A program made the translations under genes and the position numbers. From the NCBI GenBank assembly GCA_963082975.1, contig OY720350.1:39053851-39117850 (forward strand): a stretch of 64,000 nucleotides of DNA. The letters are read 5' to 3'. Below are positions 3,036-62,948 of this stretch, in pieces. The notes beneath the pieces were generated by a model. It made no database searches. It was not told the origin of the DNA and worked only from the letters and a program-made list of their open reading frames with translations. Positions within the stretch are counted from its first letter, which is position 1. Every line of letters begins with the position of its first letter. Source of the stretch: Labia minor (taxonomy: Eukaryota > Arthropoda > Insecta > Dermaptera > Spongiphoridae).

Positions 3036-3631
3036 TACTATCTCGCCAGAGATAGTATTGCGATCATGAAAATTTTCGATGTTGAGATTTTGATGTTTTT
3101 ATACGTTTTGAAGGTTCCTGAATCATTTTCACTAAGGTTGAGAAAAATGTCTGTGTGTGTGTGTGTGTGTATGTATGTAGACAAGGTTACGCAAAAATGG
3201 TTTGAGCTAGAATGATGAAATTTGGTACATGGACATTATTCAAAATTCATAGTTTTCTATCAACTTTTGAGAAATGTAGCTCAACCGGAAGAGGGTCATT
3301 ACCTACAACGTTTTGATTTTTTTTCCTCTAAAGTGACCGTAAAAATAAAAATATATGTTTGATAATTTTTCACATGATTAATAATTGTATAAAACTGCTA
3401 TATATAGAATTTCAGCTTGATTGAATTGCTAAAATTACCAGAATTAATTTTTTAACACTGCAAATCTCACGCGCCAACACGTGCCATGGTGCCATCAATA
3501 AAAAGCCATACATGCGCTGGTTTAATATTTATTATTTATAATTTATAATTAATTAAATTTAATTTAAATATAATATATTATGTTATTTAATCCAATTCAA
3601 ATTGCGAGATAGTCGAGTGGAGACACTCCAG
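3036..3631 (+). mobile_element. Helentron-like family A element, copy A1
   Basis: Intact copy. The 5' end ACTATCTCGCCAGAGATAGT is itself a small hairpin. The complementary motif GCGAGATAGT sits about 15-20 bases before the 3' end. The 3' end forms the stem-loop TGGAG-ACA-CTCCA. A (TG)n microsatellite lies at about 3150-3170, followed by GTATGTATGT. Core motifs are GATGAAATTTGGTAC (about 3215) and AACCGGAAGAGG (about 3283). No coding capacity. This is a good reference copy for the family. Confidence 0.85.
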
Positions 3632-3683
3632 CTAATTTAAATATATTATCAAAGCCAAATAATTTATTTTATGCTAAAAAAAT

Positions 3684-4292
3684 TGGGGAGTGTCCTCCCC
3701 TAGACTTTCCCGCATATAAATAGGTAATTAGGTTATTATTATTATTATGTTTTAACAACAATAAATATAAACAAACTAATTAATTTAAATTATAAAGTAA
3801 AATGGTTTAACACTATTATATATTTTTATAATTTACACCTAACGCTACTTGTATAGGTAAAATGTCACTTCCGGTAGTCAGATCATGATGAAATTTGGTA
3901 TCTGAATTTTTTTCATATTTTTAAATCTATTTACAAAATAGGAAGCAAATATCTCGAAGCAAACTGGTACTTTACTTGAAAGGTAAACGCAACCAGTGTA
4001 GTACCAGGTAAAGGTAAAGTACCACTTCCGGTTAACCGATTTTGACGAAATTTTGATAGAAATCTACAAACTGTGAATAATATCGGTGTACCAAATTTCG
4101 AAGTCCTAGCTTGATTAGTTTTTGAGTAAATTTGCTCACAGACATTACATACATACATACACACAGATATAATTCGAAAAATGGTATTTTCCGACTCAGG
4201 GAGGTCTAAAACGTCAAGATCTATCGAAATCTCGAAGTCGAAATTTTTGACGATTCCAATACTTCCCTTATACGAAGTATGCGGGAAAGTAA
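3684..4292 (-). mobile_element. Helentron-like family B element, copy B1
   Basis: Minus-strand copy only about 50 bases after A1. Its 5' end (right side) reads ACTTTCCCGCATACTTCG. The complementary subterminal motif TATGCGGGAAAGT and the 3' stem-loop GGGAG-GACA-CTCCC are at the left side, 3684-3718. A short GTAT microsatellite lies near 4147-4165. The core CGAAATTTGGTAC ... AACCGGAAGTGG is homologous in layout to family A. The 122-residue frame on the minus strand is just the element read through and has no family resemblance. Confidence 0.85.
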
Positions 4293-4299
4293 AAAACAT

Positions 4300-5935
4300 T
4301 TAGTTTGAATTTAGAAGCAAGTTATGCCGGTTGCCTTCATTCAAGGGGCTCCCATCAACTCAGTCAGTAAGTCGGCGCCCAAGAGTTATTGCGCACTATC
4401 TACTTGTCAATATTGAACCGGTGAGTGAGATTTCTATTCAAATAAGCCATATTAATTATTTATAATGTCTATTTGTAAATGTCATATTTAATAGAAGGAT
4501 AAAATAAATTAAATATAAAGATTATGTAAAATTTTTTATATATGTGAAATTAATTTTATATTTATATGTGTCTATAATTCATTTAAAACACAATTTAATT
4601 TATTTTATATTGTAAGATATAAATAGGTAATTAAAATATAAAAAAACAAAACAATAAAGAAAATTTATTCAGTTAAATTTATAAATTATTTCTAAATGAA
4701 AGCAATATATATGAAAACAAAAATATGAAAGTATTTAGTAGTAAACTATACTAAAATCTATTTAATTTTATATTACTATATATATTCATAACTTTACTCA
4801 TTTAGATAAATATACTTAAATTCACATAGTATAGACTATGGCTATATTTTATAGATAACAAGTTAATAACCATTGGATATAGATTTAATTATAGTTATTA
4901 AATCAATTGGAAATTACAGTCTTTAACTTATAATTTATTTTTATTTAATGTTTTTCTTGAATATTTAACGTTAGTTTTTCAAAATTTTATTCTAATTAAT
5001 TTTCTTTTCAGTAATAAAATATTTAATTTTTTAATTTTTCATTTCAACTCTATGATTAAACAAAAATTATCTATCCAATTTTGTGTGTCAAATTTCAAAT
5101 TTTGAAAATAAAAACAATTAATCAATTAATGATTTAGGTATTTAAAATCTTTTTTAAACTGCTTGAACTAATTGTGCCCATAATTATGAAAGTGATCTAA
5201 CTCATATATTTCTTTTTTCGAGATATTTAATGAATTGCATTTGAATAAATTAAAAAATATTTTTACATTATGCTACATTTTAATTTATAATTTTCTTAGT
5301 TTTGATTAATGGAAAATTATTATGAATTTTGTGTGAATTTTACACGAAAATGTTGTTTTTAAAGCTTGAATTGACTTAGATCATTTTCAAAATTAACTGA
5401 ATGCCCTATAAATGACTTAAAGCAATAAAGAACTATGAGTTTTATTTGAAATAATAACTTTAATGAAATAATTCATGTACATTTATTAATTATTTTTAAA
5501 AAGTTTTTTATCGAAAATGTATTTCTTCTTCTACACTTTTCTATCATTTCATAATAATGTTCTGGGTTGTTTTTTTATTTTCATTAATATCAACTCCAAA
5601 TCACGGTCATTCGGTAGAGCAAAAGAAAATTCAATTTATATTAGTTTCAGGCTTCCTAAAAATCATCTTTGTGAGTTTTTTATCACGGCAATTTTAAATG
5701 AAGTCGACGTATTTTCTTTGTACATATATTACCACTTGGTAGTTTAAAATTTATATTATTTAGTTTAATTTCATTTATTTATTTTTTATTATTATTTAAA
5801 TTATTTTATTTATTTTTATTTTTATATTTTAAATTACTTTATTTATTTAAATTATTTATTCAGTTATTAATTTCTTTATTATTTTAATTTATTTTATTTA
5901 ATTAATTTGTTAATTTGACTGTTAATATTTGTTAC
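4300..5935. other. AT-rich spacer, no gene seen
   Basis: A short GC-richer piece at 4315-4425 is followed by long AT-rich sequence with TTTATTTATT-type repeats at 5755-5930. The 76-codon frame near 5517 is Phe/Tyr/Ile-rich, as expected by chance at this composition. No gene is supported. Confidence 0.6.
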
Positions 5936-5939
5936 AATT

Positions 5940-6312
5940 TTATTTATTGGAATTAATTTTGGGGAAATTATTGTTGTAGAGTTCACGGTTTTCCTCTTGG
6001 TTATACAGTTGACGGCGCCTTTCGGATCGGATGATCCTAGTATTTATTCGTCCAGGTGAGATGTCAGAGTTAAGGCACTGGCGTTGATCTCGAAGTCCTG
6101 GGAAGTTGTGGTGTGTGGTACTTGAAAGCTTAGGCCTAGTGGTGGGTTTACTTTCTGCTTCTTGCAAATTTTCGACGTCTCGAAGTTCCTCAGGTCCCGT
6201 CGATTACTAATTTACCAAAGCGGAAATTTCCACCCGATACAATAAAAACTTAAAAAAAGTTAATGGTTTATTTACCGTTTGTAACGACTACCGACTCTGC
6301 GCCAATTATGTA
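5940..6312 (-). mobile_element. probable Gypsy-type LTR retrotransposon leader and gag start remnant
   Basis: A GC-richer island. On the minus strand it opens with TGGCGCAGAGTCGGTAG (about 6287-6305), which resembles the primer-binding site used by 17.6/297-type Gypsy elements (TGGCGCAGTCGGTAG, recalled from family knowledge), with two extra bases. A leader of roughly 150 bases follows, then an Arg/Asn/Gln-rich open frame of 75 codons down to about 5940 that could be the start of a gag-like protein. The LTR expected just right of 6312 is not recognisable, because family B copy B2 begins at 6336. No protease or polymerase is present. The call is tentative. Confidence 0.4.
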
Positions 6313-6335
6313 TAAAATAAATTTAATAAATTTTT

Positions 6336-6469
6336 TACTTTCCCGCATACTTCGTATAAGGGAAGTATTGGAATCGTCAAAAATTTCGACTTCGAGATTT
6401 CGATAAATCTTGACGTTTTAGACCTCCCTGAGTCGGAAAATACCATTTTTCGAATTATGTCTGTGTGTG

Positions 6470-6522
<53 letters not shown>

Positions 6523-6957
6523 TGTCTGTGAGCAAATTTACTCAAAAACTAATCAAGCTAGGACTTCGAAATTTGGTACACCGATATTATTCACAGTTTG
6601 TAGATTTCTATCAAAACTTCGTCAAAATCGGTTAACCGGAAGTGGTACTTTACCTACACTGGTTGCGTTTACCTTTCAAGTAAAGTACCAGTTTGCTTCG
6701 AGATATTTGCTTCCTATTTTGTAAAATATGAAAAAAATCCAGATACCAAATTTCATCATGATCTGACTACCGGAAGTGACATTTTACTTATACAAGTAGC
6801 GTTAGGTGTAAATTATAAATATATATAATAGTGTTAAACCATTTTACTTTATAATTTAAATTAATTAGTTTGTTTATTTTTATTGTTGTTAAAACATAAT
6901 AATAATAAGCTAATTACCTATTTATATGCGGGAAAGTCTAGGGGAGGACACTCCCGA
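6336..6957 (+). mobile_element. Helentron-like family B element, copy B2
   Basis: Near-identical inverted partner of copy B1 two kilobases away. The 5' end is ACTTTCCCGCATACTTCG. A long (GTAT)n array at about 6470-6520 is expanded relative to B1 and B3. The core CGAAATTTGGTAC is at about 6567 and AACCGGAAGTGG near 6634. The subterminal TATGCGGGAAAGT and stem-loop GGGAG-GACA-CTCCC end the element. Open frames across it on both strands come from the repeat array and are not genes. Confidence 0.85.
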
Positions 6958-8039: not shown

Positions 8040-8724
8040 TAAAATGTTATTTTCTAAACAAGTAAAAGAAAATAATTATGTTTATGTTATATTTTGATGA
8101 TTATATATTATATCTTACTATATTGTTTTATTTTTCAATTAAATTTATTTTATTTTTTTGCAAAAACAACATTTATTTATATTAATTTTTTCGTAATATT
8201 TTTACGATTTTCTCCTCAAATTTATTATTTTTTAAAATTTTTAAATTTTTCCCGGGAACGAAAATAATCCGGGAAAAATTACCCTTTAAACAGATCTCAC
8301 GGGTGTTGTGTGCAGAGTGTCATCTCAGCATTTTGCTCTGTCTGGGAATTCTATTCATATTATTATCAAGATATGTATTTATCTCTTAATGATAATTTAT
8401 AAAAACAAATATCTTGTTACAATTGTATGAATACATGTGAACGTGTGTGGATATGACTTTTATTATCTTTCTGATCTTCAAAGTAGTCAGTTTATTATTT
8501 ACGATATTTTAAAAACAATTTCATTCTTTAATTGATATTTAATTGAAATAATAATTAAAAAATATCTTATTTCAAATAGAATATTGAATAAATATGATCT
8601 AATATTATATTAATTAAAATGATGACTTTTAGCATAAATTATAATATACATTAAATGATTATTATAAATAAAAATAAATATATTTCACGAATGAGCAAAG
8701 AGACTGTCTTCCGTCATATTCATT
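8040..8724. other. AT-rich spacer, no gene seen
   Basis: AT-rich sequence with one GC-richer piece at 8250-8345 (CCCGGGAACG, TCTCACGGGTGTTGTG). It has no recognisable frame or repeat end. Confidence 0.5.
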
Positions 8725-9316
8725 ACTATCTCGCCAGAGATAGTAGTGCTATCACGAAAATTTTCGATGTTGAGATTTTGATGGTTTTATACGTTTTGAA
8801 GGTTCCTGAATCATTTTCACTAAGGTTGAGAAAATTGTCTGTGTGTGTGTGTGTATGTATGTAACCAAGATTACGCAAAAACGGTTTGAGCTAGAATGAT
8901 GAAATTTGGTACATGAGCATTATTCAAAATTCTATCAACTTTTGAGAAATGTAGCTCAACCGGAAGAGGGCCATTACCTACAACGATTTGATTTTTTTTC
9001 TTCTAAAGTGACCGTAAAAATAAAGATATATGTTTGATAATTTTTCACATGATTAATAATTGTACAAAACTGCTATATCTAGAATTTCAGCTTGATTGAC
9101 TCGTTGAAAGTACCAGAATTAATATTTTAACTCTGTAAATCTCACGCGCCAACACGTGATGTGGTGCCATCAACAAAGAGCCAAACATGCGCTGATTCAA
9201 TAAATATTATTTATTAATTTTAATTTATAATTTAATTAATTTAATTTTTATTTAAATTAATATATGTTATTTAATCCAATTCAAATTTGCGAGATAGTCG
9301 AATGGAGACACTCCAG
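8725..9316 (+). mobile_element. Helentron-like family A element, copy A2
   Basis: Full-length copy. It has the 5' hairpin ACTATCTCGCCAGAGATAGT, the microsatellite TGTGTGTGTGTGTATGTATG at about 8838-8862, the core GATGAAATTTGGTAC and AACCGGAAGAGG, the subterminal GCGAGATAGT and the 3' stem-loop TGGAG-ACA-CTCCA. Compared with A1 it has lost about 15 bases in the core, just after the TTATTCAAAATTC stretch. Confidence 0.85.
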
Positions 9317-20757: not shown

Positions 20758-20873
20758 TACTATCTCGCCAGAGATAGTATTGCGATCACGAAAATTTTCG
20801 ATGTTGAGATTTTGATGTTTTTATACGTTTTGAAGGTTCCTGAATCATTTTCACTAAGGTTGAGAAAAATGTC

Positions 20874-20905
<32 letters not shown>

Positions 20906-21387
20906 TATATGTGTATGTGTGTGTGTATGTATGTAGGCAAGATTACGCAAAAACGGTTTGAGCTAGAATGATGAAATTTGGTACATGTACATTATTCAAA
21001 ATTCATAGTTTTCTATCAACTTTTGAGAAATGTAGCTCAACCGGAAGAGGGTCATTACCTACAACGTTTTGATTTTTTTTCCTCTAAAGTGACCGTAAAA
21101 ATAAAGATATATGTTTGATAATTTTTCACATGATTAATAATTGTATAAAACTGCTATATATAGAATTTCAGCTTGATTGATTCGCTGAAATTACCAGAAT
21201 TAAATTTTTAACACTGCAAATCTCACGCGCCAACACGTGACGTGGTGCCATCAACAAAAAGCCAAACATGCGCTGGTTTAATATTTATTATTTATAATTT
21301 ATAATTAATTAAATTTAATTTAAATATAATATATTATGTTATTTAATCCAATTCAAATTGCGAGATAGTCGAGTGGAGACACTCCAG
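20758..21387 (+). mobile_element. Helentron-like family A element, copy A4
   Basis: Full-length and close to A1 throughout. The microsatellite at 20873-20935 is the longest (TG)n of the family, interrupted by GTATATGTGTATGTG. The 5' hairpin, the core GATGAAATTTGGTAC, AACCGGAAGAGG, the subterminal GCGAGATAGT and the stem-loop TGGAG-ACA-CTCCA are all present. Confidence 0.85.
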
Positions 21388-22348: not shown

Positions 22349-22593
22349 CTGGAGTGTCTCTACTCGACTATCTCGCAAATTTGAATTGGATTAATTAACA
22401 TATATTATATTTAAATAAAATTTAATTAATTATAAATTATAAATTAAAATTAATAAATATATATTAAACCACCGCATGTTTGGCTCTTTGTTGATGGCAC
22501 CACGTTACGTGCTGGCGCGTAACGAATAAAAACATCAAAATCTCGACATCGAAAATTTTCGTGATCGCAATACTATTTCTGGGGAGATAGTAA
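22349..22593 (-). mobile_element. internally deleted family A element, copy A5
   Basis: Minus-strand copy with both ends: the 3' stem-loop side at 22349-22375 and the 5' hairpin side at 22570-22592. About 350 internal bases are missing, including the microsatellite and the core. The deletion joins the region after TGGCGCGT directly to AAAAACATCAAAATCTCGAC. A solo pair of ends like this would look like a MITE. Confidence 0.75.
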
Positions 22594-23568: not shown

Positions 23569-23670
23569 TACTATCTCGTCAGATTTTTCAGAATTTTCGA
23601 TGTTGAGATTTTGATGTTTTTATACGTTTTGAAGGTTCCTGAATCATTTTCACTAATGTTGAGAAAAATG

Positions 23671-23731
<61 letters not shown>

Positions 23732-24192
23732 ATGTATGTAACCAAGATTACACAAAAACGGTTTGAGCTAGAATGATGAAATTTGGTACATGGACATTAT
23801 TCAAAATTCGTAGTTTTCTATCAACTTTTGAGAAATGTAGCTCAACCGGAAGAGGGTCATTACTTACAACGTTTTGATTTTTTTTCCTCTAAAGTGACCG
23901 TAAAAATAAAGATATATGTTTGATAATTTTTCACATGATTAATAATTGTATAAAACTGCTATATATAGAATTTCAGCTTGATTGATTCGCTGAAATTACC
24001 AGAATTAATTTTTTAACACTGCAAATCTCACGCGCCAACACGTGACGTGGTGTCATTAACAAAAAGCAAAACATGCGCTGGTTTAATATTTATTATTTAT
24101 AATTTATAATTAATTAAATTTAATTTAAATATAATATATTATGTTATTTAATCCTATTCAAATTGCGAGATAGTCGACTGGAGACACTCCAG
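23569..24192 (+). mobile_element. Helentron-like family A element, copy A6
   Basis: Full-length, but the 5' hairpin has changed (ACTATCTCGTCAGATTTTTC). The microsatellite is a compound tract, (TA)n at 23673-23714 then (TG)n to about 23731. The core, subterminal GCGAGATAGT and 3' stem-loop TGGAG-ACA-CTCCA are intact. Confidence 0.85.
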
Positions 24193-28148: not shown

Positions 28149-28764
28149 TACTATTTCGCCAGAGATAGTATTATTGCGATCACGAAAATTTTCGATATCG
28201 AGATTTTGCTGTTTTTCTACGTTTTGAAGGTCCCTGAGTCATTTTCATTAAGGTTGAGAAAAATGTCTCTGTGTGTGTATGTGTGTATGTAGACAAGATT
28301 ACGCAAAAACGGTTTGAGCTAGAATAATGAAATTTGGTACATGGGCATTTTTCAAAATGCGCAATTTTCTATCAACTTTTGAGAAATGTAGCTCATCCGG
28401 AAGTGGGTCATTTCCTACCACGTGTTGTGTTTTGATTTTATTTTCTTCTAAACTGACCGTAAAAATAAAGATATATGTTTTAAAGTTTTTCACATGGTTA
28501 AAAATTGTAAAAAAACTGCTATATATAAAATTTCAGTTGATTGAATCGCTGTAAGTACCGGAATTAATTTTTTAACACATTGACTGGCAATCACGCGCCA
28601 GCACGTGACGTGGTGCCATTAATAAAGAGTCAAACACGCGCTGGTTTAATAAATATTATTTATTAATTTTAATTTATAATTTAATTAATTATATTTAATT
28701 TAAATATAATATATGTTATTTAATTCAATTCTAATTCCGAGATAGTCGAATGGAGACACTCCAG
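28149..28764 (+). mobile_element. Helentron-like family A element, copy A7
   Basis: Full-length but diverged subfamily. It reads CCCTGAGTCATTTTCATTAAGG and AATAATGAAATTTGGTACATGG (given here in part), with ATCCGGAAGTGGG in place of AACCGGAAGAGGG. The microsatellite is short (TGTGTGTATGTGTGTATG). The 3' end keeps CGAGATAGTC and TGGAG-ACA-CTCCA. The CCGGAAGTGG form is the one seen in families B and C. Confidence 0.8.
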
Positions 28765-30998: not shown

Positions 30999-31550
30999 TT
31001 ACTTTCCCGCATACTTCGTATAAGGGAAGTATTGGAATCATCAAAAATTTCGACTTCGAGATGTCGATAGATCTTGACGTTTTAGACCTCCCTGAGTCGG
31101 AAAATACCATTTTTCGAATTATGTCTGTGTGTGTGTGTATGTATGGATGTATGGATGTATGTAATGTTTGTCAGTGAGCAAATTTACTCAGAAACTAATC
31201 AAGCTAGGACTTCGAAATTTGGTACACCGATATTATTCACAGTTTGTAGATTTTTATCTAAATTTCGTCAAAATCGGTTAACCGGAAGTGGTACTTTACC
31301 TACACTGGTTGCGTTTATCTTTCAAGTAAAGTACCAGTTTGCTTCGAGATATTTGCTTCCTATTTTGTATATAGATTTAAAAATATGAAAAAAATTCAGA
31401 TACCAAATTTCATCATGATCTGACTACCGGAAGTGAAAAATGTCACTTTACCATTTTATAATACTTTATAATTTAAATTAATTAGTTTGTTTATTTTTAT
31501 TGTTGTTAATTATTTATATGCGGGAAAGTCTAGGGGAGGACACTCCCGAT
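30999..31550 (+). mobile_element. Helentron-like family B element, copy B3
   Basis: The 5' end is ACTTTCCCGCATACTTCG. The microsatellite is TGTGTGTGTATGTATGGATG (about 31128). The core CGAAATTTGGTAC and AACCGGAAGTGG are present. The 3' end TATGCGGGAAAGT is followed by stem-loop GGGAG-GACA-CTCCC. Compared with B1 and B2 it lacks part of the region before the 3' end, including the GTAGCGTTAGGTGTAAATTA stretch. Confidence 0.85.
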
Positions 31551-35738: not shown

Positions 35739-36184
35739 CAGCTGGATGACGTCATATAATTTTAATTTAGAAAAAACTAATAAAGATGATTTTTCTCGAG
35801 TATAAAACCAATGCAAAGTGAATGATTCGTGATGATATGTAAAAAATCTCCTCATGTGAAATTTGGTATGAAAATAACCCTTTCCTTCCTATCGTCGATC
35901 GCTAATACTACCACTTCCGGTTTCCGGATTTGCACCAAAAGTTGATCAATTCATCCCACTGATGCATTAAGTAAATATACCAAATTTCATCAAAATCCTT
36001 TCAGCCGTTCAGGCTGTACACATCTATACGGACAGACGGACGGACGTACGGACGGACAGACATCATGTTAAAAATACTTTTTTCTGTTAAGAAAATGCAT
36101 GATTCGTGGAGATATGTAAAAATCTCCACATGTGAAATTTGGTGTGAAAACAATACCTCCCTTACTATCGTCGGTCGGTAAAAA
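35739..36184 (-). mobile_element. 3'-truncated family C element, copy C2
   Basis: Minus-strand copy with an intact 5' end (ACCGACCGACGATAGTAAGG side at about 36160-36182) and GGACGGACGT-type microsatellite at about 36030-36060. The left boundary falls in the TGACGTCAT block, so the 3' stem-loop and subterminal motif are missing. The core (complement of GATGAAATTTGGTAT and CCGGAAGTGG) is present. Confidence 0.8.
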
Positions 36185-41160: not shown

Positions 41161-41307
41161 TTTTTGTATTTTGTTTTTCTTATTTTGGTTTTTCTTTTCT
41201 GTATATATCTAAAAAGATGTAAAACTGATACTCTGGGTCTATGATTGTGTGTGTCATCAATTAGAGACATGTTGATTACGGAGTGTCAGTTTTTATGTAA
41301 ATATGTC

Positions 41308-41946
41308 CGACCGACGATAGTAAGGGAGGTATTGTTTTCACACCAAATTTCACATGTGGAGATTTTTACATATCTCCACGAATCATGCATTTTCTTAACA
41401 CAAAAAAGTATTTTTAGCATGATGTCTGTCCGTCCGTCCGTCCATCTGTCCGTCCGTCCGTATAGATGTGCACAGCCTGAACGGCTCAACGGATTTTGAT
41501 GAAATTTGGTATATTTACTTAATGCATCAGTAGGATGAATTGATCAACTTTTGGTGCAAATCCGGAAACCGGAAGTGATAGAATTAGTGATCGACGTTAG
41601 GAAGGGAAGGGTTATTTTAGCACCAAATTTCACATGAGGAGATTTTTTTATATATCACCATTGTATTGGTTTTATCCTCGAGAAACATCATCTTTATTAG
41701 TTTTTTGTCAATTTGAAATTATATGACGTCATCCAACCATTCATGACGTCACAACCTGGTCTTACATATATTATAAATAAAATAAAATTAAAAATATTTA
41801 TGTTATATTTATATCTGTTTTTTATTACATTAATAGATATATTTAAATTATTTGAAATTCTTTCTGTAGCTGGAAATTAATTTACTTCAAACCGTCGGTC
41901 GGTTCGGACATGGCCACAGGTCAACTTATTTTATTTTGATTTTGTT
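41308..41946 (+). mobile_element. Helentron-like family C element, copy C3
   Basis: Full-length. The 5' end is CCGACCGACGATAGTAAGGG, the microsatellite (GTCC)n with one ATCT interruption at about 41428-41460, the core GATGAAATTTGGTAT at about 41498 and CCGGAAGTGATAG near 41570. The subterminal CCGTCGGTCGGTTCGGAC and stem-loop (here GACATG-GCCA-CAGGTC, one mismatch) are followed by AACTTA. It is nested in the LINE, 150 bases after the solo 5' end of the same family. Confidence 0.85.
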
Positions 41947-45516: not shown

Positions 45517-45638
45517 ATTTTTACTATTCTCGCCTGAGATAGTATTGCGATCACGAAAATTTTTGATGTTGAGATTTTGATGTTTTTATACGTTTTGAAG
45601 GTCCCTGAATCATTTTCACTAAGGTTGAGAAAAATGTC

Positions 45639-45672
<34 letters not shown>

Positions 45673-46324
45673 ACAAGATTATTCAAAAAACGGTTTGAGC
45701 TAGAATAATGAAAATTGCTACACGGGCATTATTCAAAATTCGTAGTTTTCTATTAACTTTAATTTACATATATATATATAAAGTTGATGTTTTTTTAATT
45801 TTCCGTCTCTTTTTAATGAAATCGCAACACTGCTTCTGTAAACAGGCAACAATCAGCTGAATTCTGTCGAAATTTGAACTAGCTGGGTCTTTTAGTTTTT
45901 GTTTGACATCCATCAATACCAGACGACCTCGTGATTTGAGAAGAAAATGGAAAAAAGTGAATTTCCATGAAAATCCATGAATTTGGATACGAATTGCTTC
46001 CTATTTTTTTTCACTAAACTGACCGTAAAAATAAATATATGTTTGAAAGTTTTTCACATTATTAAAAATTGTATAAAACTGCTATATATAAAATTTCAGT
46101 TGATTGCATTACTGAAAGTACCGGAATTAATATTTTAACACTGCAAATCACGCGCCAGCACGTGACGTGGTTCCATCAACAAAGAGCCAAGAACGCGCTA
46201 TTTTAATAAATATTATTTATTAATTTTAATTTATAATTTAATTAATTAAATTTAATTTAAATATAATATATATGTTTATTAACCCAAATCATTTTTGCGA
46301 GATACTCGAATGGAGACACTCCAG
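45517..46324 (+). mobile_element. family A element with mariner segment inside, copy A8
   Basis: The 5' end ACTATTCTCGCCTGAGATAG, microsatellite (about 45643-45671), and the core AATGAAAATTGCTAC are family A. At about 45760 the sequence switches to mariner-II DNA (to 46003), then returns at TCACTAAACTGACCGTAAAA and runs to the 3' stem-loop TGGAG-ACA-CTCCA. About 55 bases of family A sequence, including the AACCGGAAGAGG motif, are missing at the switch, so this is a replacement rather than a clean insertion. Confidence 0.75.
45760..46003 (+). mobile_element. mariner-II segment inside A8
   Basis: Almost identical to 43313-43557, including the TATATATA run and AAAGTTG.TGTTTTTTTAA at its left and GGATACGAATTGCTTCCT at its right. 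Neither end is a mariner terminus and there is no TA duplication. Confidence 0.75.
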
Positions 46325-50306: not shown

Positions 50307-50732
50307 TGGAGTGTCTCCACTCGACTATCTCGCAAATTTAAATTGGATTAAATAACATACTTATATTATATTTAAATTAAATTTAATTAATTATAAATTA
50401 TAAATTAAAATTAATAAATAATATATATTAAACCAGCGCGACTAATTGTTGATGACATCAAGTCACGTGCTGGCGGGTGATTGGCAGTCAACGTGCTAAA
50501 AAATTTAAAAAATTAATTCCGGTACTTTCAGCGATTCAAACTAGGTGAAATTCTATATATAGCAGTTTTATAGAGATTAGAGGAAAAAACTGAAAACGTG
50601 GTAGGTAATGAGCCTCTTTCAGATGAGCTACATTTCTCAAAAGTTGATAGAAAACTAGGAGTGTTGAATAATGCCCGTGTACCAAATTTAATTATTCTAG
50701 CTCAAACCGTTTTTTCTTAATCTTGACTACAT

Positions 50733-50764
<32 letters not shown>

Positions 50765-50876
50765 TTCTCAACCTTAGTGAAAATGACTCAGGGACCTTCA
50801 AAACGTATAGAATCATCAAAATCTCGACATCAAAAATTTTCATGATCGCAATACTATCTCTTCGGAGATAGTAAAA
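50307..50876 (-). mobile_element. Helentron-like family A element, copy A9
   Basis: Minus strand. The 3' stem-loop side TGGAGTGTCTCCACTCGACT is at 50307, the microsatellite (CACACACATATATATATATA) at about 50732-50763, and the 5' hairpin side at 50850-50875. Some internal loss occurs in the region after CTATATATAGCAGTTTTAT, where the TTTTTCACATGATTAA block is missing. Confidence 0.8.
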
Positions 50877-54614: not shown

Positions 54615-55193
54615 CTGGAGTGTCTCCACTCGACGAACTCGCAAATTTAAATTGGATTATATTTAAATTAAATTATAAATTAAAAATAATAAATAATTTG
54701 TATTTTGGCTGTTTGTTGATGGCACCTCGGCACGTGCTGGCGCGTGATTGCCAGTCAACGTGTTAAAAAATTATAATTCCGGTACTTTCAGCAAATCATT
54801 CAAGCTGGAATTCTATATATAGAAGTTTTATACAATTTTTAATCATGTGAAAAACTATCAAACATATATCTTTATTTTTACGGTCACTTTAGAGGAAAAA
54901 AATCAAAACGTTGCAGGTAATGGACCCTCTTCCGGTTGAGCTACATTTCTCAAAAGTTGATAGAAAACTACGAATTTTGAATAATGCCCGTATACCAAAT
55001 TTCATGACACTAGCTCAAACCGTTTTTGCGTAATCTTGTCTACATACATAACACACACACACACACACACATACACACCCACCCACACAGACATTTTTCG
55101 CAAACTTAGTGAAAATGACTCAGTGACCATCAAAACGTATAAAAACATCAAAGTCTCTACATCGGAAATTTTAATCTGGCGAGATAGTAAAAA
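54615..55193 (-). mobile_element. Helentron-like family A element, copy A10
   Basis: Minus strand. The 3' side is CTGGAGTGTCTCCACTCGAC at 54615, the core (complement of GAAATTTGGTATACGG) at about 54990, and the microsatellite (AC)n at 55050-55075 with CCCACCCACACAG. The 5' side has lost the TATCTCG hairpin half beyond ATTTTAATCTGGCGAGATAG (at 55169-55188). The subterminal region reads GACGAACTCGC (variant). Confidence 0.8.
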
Positions 55194-58184: not shown

Positions 58185-59592
58185 TACTATCTCGCCAGAA
58201 ATTGTATTGCGATCGCGAAAATTTTCGATGTCGAGATTTTGATGTTTTTATACGTTTTGAAGGTCCCTGAGTCATTTTCACTAAGGTTGAGAAAAATGTC
58301 TGTGTGTGTGTATATATGGGTGAGTATGTAGACAAGATTATGCAAAAACAGTTTGAGCTAGAATAATGAAATTTGGTATACGGGCATTATTCAAAATTCG
58401 TAGTTTTCTATCAACTTTTGAGAAATGTAGCTCAACCGGAAGAGGGTTATTACCTACAAAGTTTTGATTTTTTACCGACCGACGTTAGTAAGGGAGGTAT
58501 TGTTTTCACACCAAATTTCACATGTGGAGATTTTTACATATCTCCACGAATCATGCATTTTCTTAACAGAAAAAAGTATTTTTAGCATGATGTCTGTCCG
58601 TCCGTCCGTCTGTCCGTCCGTCCGTATAGATGTGTACAGCCTGAACGGCTCAACCGATTTTGATGAAATCTGGTATATTTACTTAATGCATCAGTGGGAT
58701 GAATTGATCAACTTTTGGTGCAAATCCGGAAACCGGAAGTGGTAGTAATAGCGATCGACGATAGGAAGGGAAGGGTTATTTTCACACCAAATTTCACATG
58801 AGGAGATTTTTTTATATATCACCACGAATCATGCACTTTGTATTGGTTTTATCCTCGAGAAAATCATATTTATTAGTTTTTTCTTGATTTAAAATTATAT
58901 GACGTCATCCAGCCATTCATGACGTCACAGCCTGGTCTTGCATATATATTATAAATAAAATAAAATTAAACATGTTTATATTTATTATTTATGTATCCAT
59001 ATCTGTTTTTTATTACATTAATAGATATATTAAAATTATTTGAAATTGTTTCTGTAGCTGCTAATTAATCTACTTCAAACCGTCGGTCGGTTCGGACCTG
59101 GCCACAGGTCAACTTATTTCCTCTAAAGAGACCGTAAAAATAAAGATATATGTTTGAAAGTTTTTCACTTTATTAAAAATTGTACAAAACTGCTATATAT
59201 AGAATTTCAGCTTGATTGAATAGCTAAAAGTACCAGAATTAATTTTCAAAATTCAAAATTCGAAGTTTTCTAAATGTAGTTCATCAGGAAAAGGGTCATT
59301 ACCTACAACGTTTTGATTTTTTTCCTCTAAAGTGACACTAAAAATAAAGATATATATTTACAAGTTTTTCACATGATTAAAACTTCTATATATAGAATTT
59401 TAGCTTAATTGAATCGCTGATAGTACCGGAATTTTTTAACACGTGGTGCCATCAACAAATGCCAAACACGCGCTGGTTTAATAAATAATATTTATTAATT
59501 TTAATTTATAATTAATTAAATTTAATTTAAATATAATATATGTTATTTAATCCAATTCAAATTTGCGAGATAGTCGAATAGAGCCACTCCAG
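58185..59592 (+). mobile_element. family A element A11, interrupted by family C
   Basis: The 5' end ACTATCTCGCCAGAAATTGT, microsatellite GTGTGTGTGTATATATGGGT and core AATGAAATTTGGTATACGGG are followed by AACCGGAAGAGGG. Family C copy C4 sits at 58472-59116 in the TTTTGATTTTTTTCCTCT run, so the insertion was between T residues. After it, family A resumes at TTTCCTCTAAAGAGACCGTA. A direct partial duplication follows at about 59240-59400 (AAAATTCGAAGTTTTCTAAA, then a second GTTTTGATTTTTTTCCTCTA). The 3' end is TAGTCGAATAGAGCCACTCC (stem broken by changes). Confidence 0.8.
58472..59116 (+). mobile_element. Helentron-like family C element, copy C4 (nested in A11)
   Basis: Full length with clean boundaries: 5' ACCGACCGACGTTAGTAAGG, microsatellite (GTCC)n at about 58595-58623, core GATGAAATCTGGTAT, CCGGAAGTGGTAG, two TGACGTCA(T/C) motifs, subterminal CCGTCGGTCGGTTCGGAC, and stem-loop GACCTG-GCCA-CAGGTC then AACTTA. 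Because the host element is known, this copy defines the family C ends. Confidence 0.9.
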
Positions 59593-61000: not shown

Positions 61001-61620
61001 TTTTACCGACCGACGATAGTAAGGGAGGTTATGTTTTCACTCCAAATTTCACATGTGGAGATTTTTACATATCTCCACGAATCATGCATTTTCTTAACAA
61101 AAAATGTATTTTTAGCATGATGTCTGTCCGTCCGTCCGTCTGTCCGTTTGTCCGTCCGTATAGATGTGTACAGCCTGAACGGCTCAACCGATTTACTTAA
61201 TGCATCAGTGGGATGAATTGATCAACTTTTGGTGCAAATCCGGAAACCGGAAGTGGTAGTATTAGCGATCGACGATAGGAAGGGAAGGGTTATTTTCACA
61301 CCAAATTTCACACGAGGAGATTTTTTATATATCACTACGAATCATGCACTTTGTATTGGTTTTATCCTCTGGAAAATCATATTTATTAGTTTTTTCTTGA
61401 TTTAAAATTATATGACGTCGTCCAGCCATTCATGACGTCACAGCCTGGTCTTGCATATATATTATAAATAAAATAAAATTAAAAATATTTATGTTATATC
61501 CATATCTGTTTTTTATTGCATTAATAGATATATTAAAATTATTTGAAATTGTTTCTGTAGCTGGAAATTAATTTGCTTCAAACTGTCGGTCGGTTCGGAC
61601 CTGGCCACAGGTCAACTTAT
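61001..61620 (+). mobile_element. Helentron-like family C element, copy C5
   Basis: Full length: 5' ACCGACCGACGATAGTAAGG, microsatellite with GTTTGTCC interruption at about 61120-61150, CCGGAAGTGGTAG, subterminal TGTCGGTCGGTTCGGAC and stem-loop GACCTG-GCCA-CAGGTC. It has lost the GATGAAATTTGGTAT block between the CAACCGATTT and ACTTAATGCA motifs (about 19 bases). Confidence 0.85.
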
Positions 61621-62344: not shown

Positions 62345-62948
62345 TATTGTTTTCACACCAAATTTCACATGTGGAGATTTTTACATATCTCCACGAATCA
62401 AGCATTTTCTTAACAGAAAAAAAATATTTTTAGTATGATGTCTGTCCGTCCGTCCGTACGTCCGTATAGATGTGTACAGGTTGAACGGCTCAACCGATTT
62501 TGATGAAATTTGGTATATTTACTTAATGCATCAGTGGGATGAATTGATCAACTTTTGGTGCAAATCCGGAAACCGGAAGTGGTAGTATAAGCGATCGACG
62601 ATAGGAAGTGTAGGGTTATTTTCAAACCAAATTTCACATGAGGAGATTTTTTTATATATCACCACGAATCATGCACTTTGTATTGGTTTTATCCTCGGGA
62701 AAATCATATTTATTATTTTTTTCTTGATTTAAAATTATATGACGTCATCCAGCCATTCATGACGTCACAGCCTCATATATTATAAATAAAATAAAATTAA
62801 AAATGTTTATATTTATTATTTATGGATCCATATCTGATTTTTATTACATTAATAGATATATTAAAATTATTTGAAATTGTTTCTGTAGCTGGAAATTAAT
62901 TTACTTCAAACCGTCGGTCGGTTCGGACCTGGCCACAGGTCAACTTAT
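62345..62948 (+). mobile_element. 5'-truncated family C element, copy C6
   Basis: Starts at TATTGTTTTCACACCAAATT, so the first about 30 bases (terminal motif) are missing. It has the microsatellite GTCCGTCCGTCCGTACGTCC (about 62442), core GATGAAATTTGGTAT, CCGGAAGTGGTAG, subterminal CCGTCGGTCGGTTCGGAC and stem-loop GACCTG-GCCA-CAGGTC. The missing piece is almost the same length as the solo 5' end at 41129-41160. Confidence 0.85.

Follow-up and report, generated by a model that had tools for sequence, protein, structure and literature searches.

Do repeat families that share one terminal layout within a genome descend from a single autonomous parent, or from several? The question is raised by a 64-kb stretch of the Labia minor genome (C9:39053851-39117850; the whole of this stretch is referred to as the window), which carries many copies of three short repeat families, A, B and C, with Helentron-like ends. 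In our view it is highly probable that all three are families of HINEs, the non-autonomous derivatives of Helentrons. An earlier note on this DNA had already made this assignment, and it is upheld by elements in the same genome that encode Rep and helicase and carry the ends of A and of B, as well as by insertion into T-runs at four empty sites. Families A and B are shown to retain some 520-560 bp from the 5' end and roughly 40 bp from the 3' end of two different Helentrons in this genome, the coding region having been deleted.

The genome comprises 604 Mb in 71 contigs. The window has a G+C content of 26% and contains no complete open frame of at least 160 aa in its 64 kb, and 18.0% of its length is taken up by matches to A, B and C (E up to 1e-8). 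Genome-wide, the exact 3' terminus of family A (a 28-mer) is present 16,414 times, that of B (a 29-mer) 2,642 times and that of C (a 33-mer) 15,027 times, with 0 hits for each reversed-pattern control. As perfect ends alone were counted, the number of copies that end in this way is at least this high in each family. Viral contigs held 0 exact matches to each of the three 3' ends.

Terminal structure and insertion sites

The ends, subterminal inverted repeats and 3' stem-loops that had been described for the three families were all found at their expected places, in the complete A copy at 3036-3631 (plus strand; its T-run continues 3' after CTA), the reference B copy at 6336-6957 (plus strand) and the reference C copy at 58472-59116 (plus strand), which is nested inside an A copy. 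The 5' word matches its reverse complement near the 3' end exactly over 10 bp in A, 13 bp in B and 11 bp in C, and this complement, which the earlier note had put about 15-25 bases inside the 3' end, lies 18 (A), 20 (B) and 25 nt (C) inside it. The subterminal match was equalled or exceeded in 2 (A), 0 (B) and 1 (C) of 2000 dinucleotide shuffles. The 3' stems, of 5, 5 and 6 bp respectively, were each reached by many shuffles (500, 436 and 119 of 2000) and are therefore weak evidence by themselves; stem and subterminal repeat together were reached in 1 (A), 0 (B) and 0 (C) of 2000, and the stems form part of termini that recur without mismatch in thousands of copies.

Short, AT-rich, non-coding repeats present in thousands of copies, with inverted repeats of 10-13 bp near both ends, could also be cut-and-paste miniature inverted-repeat transposable elements (MITEs), which would have terminal inverted repeats and a target duplication. 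Empty insertion sites bear on this alternative. For 63 copy rows (33 of B, 19 of A and 11 of C, not de-duplicated, with window copies recurring in L001 and L039), the two flanks were joined and compared with the sequence retrieved for the analysis. Junction-spanning hits were obtained for 5 of the 63 rows, and after removal of row A|L002, which had matched its own locus, four paralogous empty sites remained. Where an A copy had received C, a run of 8 Ts (one subject has 7) became 6+3; where B had entered an A copy (L060), 5 Ts became 5+5; a B insertion into unidentified sequence turned 7 Ts into 6+5, the A-run in its flank differing by two extra As; and an A insertion into another repeated sequence turned 5 Ts into 2+5. 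Counts of T-runs on the 5' side are biased, one or two Ts being taken from the query, and were not used.

At these four sites only Ts are duplicated, and the surplus of 1, 2, 4 or 5 Ts varies between them, so that there is no fixed target duplication. The prediction that the flanks would reveal insertion between Ts without target duplication was thus borne out. The 5-T run that now reads 5+5 at L060 would, by itself, suit a MITE, but the varying surplus at the four sites argues against one, as do the position of the 3' repeat, 18-25 nt inside the end, and the full-length parents, which code for Rep and helicase. Terminal inverted repeats with a fixed target duplication were found neither at the ends nor at the four empty sites, and we give the MITE interpretation very little credence.

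The HINE assignment accords with published systems. Thomas and Pritham (2014, PMC4067079) describe HINEs that insert into T-rich sequence without target change and whose Ts are part of the element itself, their number being variable. The HINEs of Metaseiulus occidentalis and Culex in that study resemble ours in their subterminal inverted repeats, 3' palindrome and microsatellites, in their T-rich sites without target change and their variable number of terminal Ts, and in having arisen by deletion from Rep/helicase elements of their own genome with an endonuclease, in our case a putative one. Our families differ in that the 3' repeat lies 18-25 nt plus Ts from the end, rather than the 38-60 nt given there for the mite; they differ from mite and Culex HINEs in sharing about 40 bp at the 3' end but more than 500 bp at the 5' end with the parent, and in that two of the three families exceed 15,000 exact 3' ends. 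The same study names HINE families by at least 11 identical bp in the subterminal inverted repeats, and the 10-bp repeat of A is one short of this rule. Drosophila DINE-1/INE-1 elements, as described there, are similar in their high copy number, and the 5' subterminal repeat of A opens an inverted repeat, ACTATCTC-GCCA-GAGATAGT, as is reported for DINE-1 (PMC4067079). Dispersed non-autonomous Helentrons with tandem repeats are also described for the Pacific oyster, where the repeats form satellite-like arrays (PMC7492417).

Autonomous partners of families A and B

A search of the genome with the Helitron_like_N profile returned 104 matches, fragments included. Rep motif 2 separates canonical Helitrons, which have GLPH, from Helentrons, which have GSPH (PMC4067079). 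Among 30 Rep loci examined, motif 2 was of the GSPH type in 4 (L034-L037) and of the GLPH type in 22, while 4 were without the motif under the pattern used.

The existence of GLPH-type Reps, several of them with long open frames, leaves room for an origin of the three families from canonical Helitrons. These have a 5' TC, a 3' CTRR and insertion between A and T as their hallmarks, and 9 of the 19 A rows do have CTAA directly behind the 3' stem's CTCCAG. However, CTRR is absent from the other 10 A rows, from all 21 B rows listed (of 33) and from 11 of 11 C rows, and the 5' TC is absent. Within the 30 Rep loci and their 1.5-kb flanks, no A, B or C ends were tied to a GLPH-type Rep, and the sole exact termini are those of L033, where they stand upstream of the Rep piece. 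A canonical origin therefore appears extremely unlikely to us. As a separate observation, seven canonical-type Helitron Rep matches with identical scores (L015-L021) are spread over five contigs, with frames of 1,537-1,652 aa; the best protein among the matches listed for them is from the snail Biomphalaria glabrata, at 68%.

The Helentron interpretation is carried by two elements. The first, Helentron-A (C1:47874778-47862613, minus strand), measures 12,166 bp from its A 5' match to its A 3' match and includes the longest open frame among the Helitron_like_N matches listed (C1:47868109), with a GSPH-type motif 2 that reads ERVEFQMRGSPHEH / VEFQMRGSPHEH. Its 5' end, at locus L088 upstream of Rep, starts TTTTT|ACTATCTCG and matches A at 1-143 (98%), 112-488 (94%) and 279-518 (93%). 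Its 3' end, 1.2 kb downstream of the Rep locus, is identical to the last 37 bp of A. The open reading frame (ORF) of 2,181 aa contains DUF6570, Helitron_like_N (PF14214) and PIF1 (PF05970), followed after the helicase by a weak endonuclease match (PF14529, 3e-4, below the Pfam cut-off); a weak match to an Ulp1-type protease (PF02902, 0.003) is likewise below its cut-off, and the literature searched contained no paper combining Helentron with Ulp1. The mite Helentron is reported to have a second ORF for an RPA-like protein (PMC4067079). A second copy of Helentron-A (C1:44694181) shares its last 249 bp with the first at 99.2% identity, and beyond the A end its flank diverges at once. The interior of Helentron-A has received later insertions, including a piece of the C 5' end and, in the 3' leader, a high-copy repeat of about 720 bp (C1:47862599-47863949). 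This repeat is 87-94% identical at 39 other places scored and, with its AAG/AAT-rich tail, looks like a retroposed element.

The second element, Helentron-B (C1:44706631-44692854), adjoins the second Helentron-A copy, and its protein is 57-60% identical to the A protein. It starts TTT|ACTTTCCCGCATA, and its 5' end corresponds to B 1-557 (B 1-161 at 90.9% and B 153-557 at 94.5%). Broken frames then encode a Rep with a GSPH-type motif 2 (VEFQQRGSPHEH), a PIF1 helicase and, after it, an endonuclease match (PF03372, 3e-5, just under the Pfam cut-off). The 3' end, B 580-622 at 98%, lies beyond the inserted Helentron-A copy, which starts right after the Helentron-B endonuclease frame (L076, C1:44700600-44701650). 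At locus L082, B sequence with a C insertion shares the last ~1 kb of Helentron-B (85%), with the B end. In both partners the residues before Rep motif 2 are Y-E-R, which fit the signature F/Y-w/l/y/k-R at the first and last positions and deviate in the middle.

For family B, the step from parent to derivative can be read at a junction. In the window copy at 31000-31549 (plus strand), GTTGTTAATTATTTAT of Helentron-B runs directly into ATGCGGGAAAG, the two being joined at the 7-bp repeat TATTTAT that both share; by its letters, this copy is a simple internal deletion of Helentron-B. The junction is the sole exact case in the sequence retrieved, where the main-form junction has 32.

The search for an autonomous element with the same ends, which the earlier note had proposed, thus succeeded for A and B, while C was traced by its 5' half. 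The first 540 bp of C are followed by the same non-C sequence in two loci. In one (C1:47872894, inside Helentron-A) the match starts at C 1; in the other (C1:55785600, read from C 282) it stands upstream of Rep matches that share 40-51% identity with the A protein. Continuation of C into a Helentron Rep locus is thereby shown in part. C5:80763455 matches 1,001 of 1,901 bases of the C-type stretch, by alignment only, and in the upstream stretches of five further Rep loci (L083-L087) one family end was found, that of C in L084. The GSPH-type element represented by L034-L037 and L069-L071 was rejected as a partner, as 9.9 kb around it (C9:34493500-34503400) contain no A, B or C match. Its copies are 99.7-99.9% identical over 3,378 bp, one having a frame of 1,785 aa that stops after the helicase, without an endonuclease, and a ~290-bp upstream stretch is common to it and the C-type Helentron locus (93-94%).

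Several points weigh against the explanation of the three families as Helentron derivatives. In the second Helentron-A copy the 5' half of A is missing, and the match begins about 0.8 kb inside the element. At L081 (C1:7258100-7258700), the 3' leader of Helentron-A is followed by an A-like 5' end where Helentron-A has the 3' end of A, and the A 3' terminus of Helentron-A could therefore derive from an A element that was inserted and later deleted. The Helentron-B ORF is broken and has a Helentron-A copy sitting inside the element, and the endonuclease matches of both partners fall below curated cut-offs. Main-form B copies hold about 25 bp between their halves that match neither half of Helentron-B. 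Finally, only the 5' half of C has been traced.

A shared 5' region

The three families had been described as sequence-distinct, and in this respect the earlier description does not hold. When the first ~250 bp, with the microsatellite removed, were compared by local alignment, scores were 67.5 for A-B (z=32), 31.0 for B-C (z=12) and 24.0 for A-C (z=7). Scores of 500 shuffles had means of 10.9-11.7 and maxima of 19.5-20.5, and 0 of 500 reached any of the alignment scores. A microsatellite is present in each family as claimed, though not at the centre: it occupies the 5' third, at about positions 110-190 of roughly 600, and is preceded by an identical ATGTCTG in A, B and C. Given these homologous 5' regions and the shared ATGTCTG, A, B and C are offshoots of a single old family that has seen its terminal motifs turn over, and their deeper common descent holds.

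We considered whether this region might be a hidden coding frame, and rejected it. Mismatches between A and B fall at 10/7/4 and 18/17/14 by phase, with no clear third-position pattern; this is too even across phases, and the region therefore reads as non-coding. The 5' part also contains CCGGAAG, the core of ETS-factor sites, in 15 of the 19 A rows, in all 33 B rows and in 6 of the 11 C rows. That the retained 5' part serves as a promoter is a guess.

One Helentron lineage or several

The matching layout of the families had been taken to suggest radiation from one autonomous lineage. Over the Rep region, Helentron-B is 75.6% identical to a protein of the spider Araneus ventricosus (P0001) and 72.2% to one of the snail Physella acuta (P0002), and 58% identical to Helentron-A. 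The best relatives of the A partner among the matches listed are the same two proteins, at 62%. The Araneus protein, the closest of the matches listed to both partners, has PF14529; the comparison with both animals' Helentrons was made at the protein level. These comparisons used 120 of the 473 proteins found by the A-protein search, so that the database rows for B come from the A query.

A Rep tree of 34 rows (A, B and the 32 best of the listed proteins that overlapped sufficiently; 477 of 540 columns) places B with Araneus and Physella at 100/99 and A as sister to that group at 99/96. Constraining A and B to form a clade costs 42 log-units and is rejected at a p-AU of 0.015, a moderate value that rests on ~430 residues. 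Since B groups with Araneus and Physella and A stands outside, the two partners had separated before the B lineage diverged among these animals. Closeness of this order between spider and snail proteins suggests horizontal transfer, to the extent that protein similarity can indicate it.

A single lineage that radiated within this genome and gave all three families could account for the homologous 5' regions, for the like domain order of the A and B partners and for their joint position in a supported four-row clade (99/96). It is at odds with the greater nearness of the B partner to Araneus (75.6%) and Physella (72.2%) than to the partner of A (58%), and with a tree in which B joins these two and the A+B clade is rejected. 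We consider such a radiation improbable. Of the earlier proposal, the underlying common descent survives, the 5' regions of the three families being homologous, while a single autonomous lineage is not supported for the A and B partners.

What the deletions retain

An autonomous Helentron's Rep/helicase would recognise the HINE 5' region and its 3' repeat and stem-loop; from the anatomy and the model for this class, Rep would nick the element, copy it from the 5' region and stop at the 3' repeat and stem-loop. HINEs, supplying both ends in cis, would be copied as single strands by rolling-circle replication and inserted between Ts, and new HINEs would arise through deletion between short direct repeats. 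Rolling-circle, single-strand transposition of A, B and C is inferred from these features.

Both parent-offspring pairs keep more than 500 bp at the 5' end and about 40 bp at the 3' end, which indicates unequal cis-requirements. As a tentative proposal, which we regard as possible but doubtful in its entirety, each family may go back to a Helentron of its own through a deletion of one common type, which retains ~520-560 bp at the 5' end and the last ~40 bp at the 3' end (the 3' length applying to A and B alone) and so reads out the cis-requirements; the 5' part may be the Rep promoter, and the B lineage may have come by horizontal transfer. If this is true, the cis-requirements would comprise a long 5' region, homologous across lineages despite the turnover of terminal motifs, and a very short 3' terminator, and if the 5' part is the Rep promoter, about 34,000 dispersed copies could share a regulatory element. 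For two abundant repeat families, the comparison turns a likeness into a parent-offspring link that has been tested, and one deletion junction can be read base by base. It also shows that families of like architecture within one genome may go back to separate autonomous lineages, one of them here with near relatives in a spider and a snail. The short common 3' end and long common 5' region would together define a concrete minimal substrate for Helentron transposition.

Copies in the window and elsewhere

Besides the complete copy, family A is represented in the window on the plus strand at 8724-9316, 20758-21387, 23592-24192 (match starting at A position 36), 28149-28764 and 45522-46324 (an older copy), and at 58185-59592, where it is interrupted by the C copy at 58472-59116. 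Minus-strand A copies lie at 22349-22592, which is internally deleted (A 1-72 and 434-596 matched), at 50307-50873 and at 54615-55172 (match starting at A position 34). A further B copy is found on the minus strand at 3686-4291. Family C has minus-strand copies at 116-725 and 35741-36181, the latter a 5' part (C 1-442), and plus-strand copies at 41304-41928, 61003-61619 and 62345-62947 (match starting at C position 27).

The reference C copy includes, at its positions 278-368, a second, inner copy of its own first 90 bp that is 85% identical and is a possible spare 5' end. Outside the window, three A copies with identical scores (C4:69747548, 69762373 and 69777197) are spaced by ~14,825 bp, and this equal spacing suggests a recent tandem segmental duplication.

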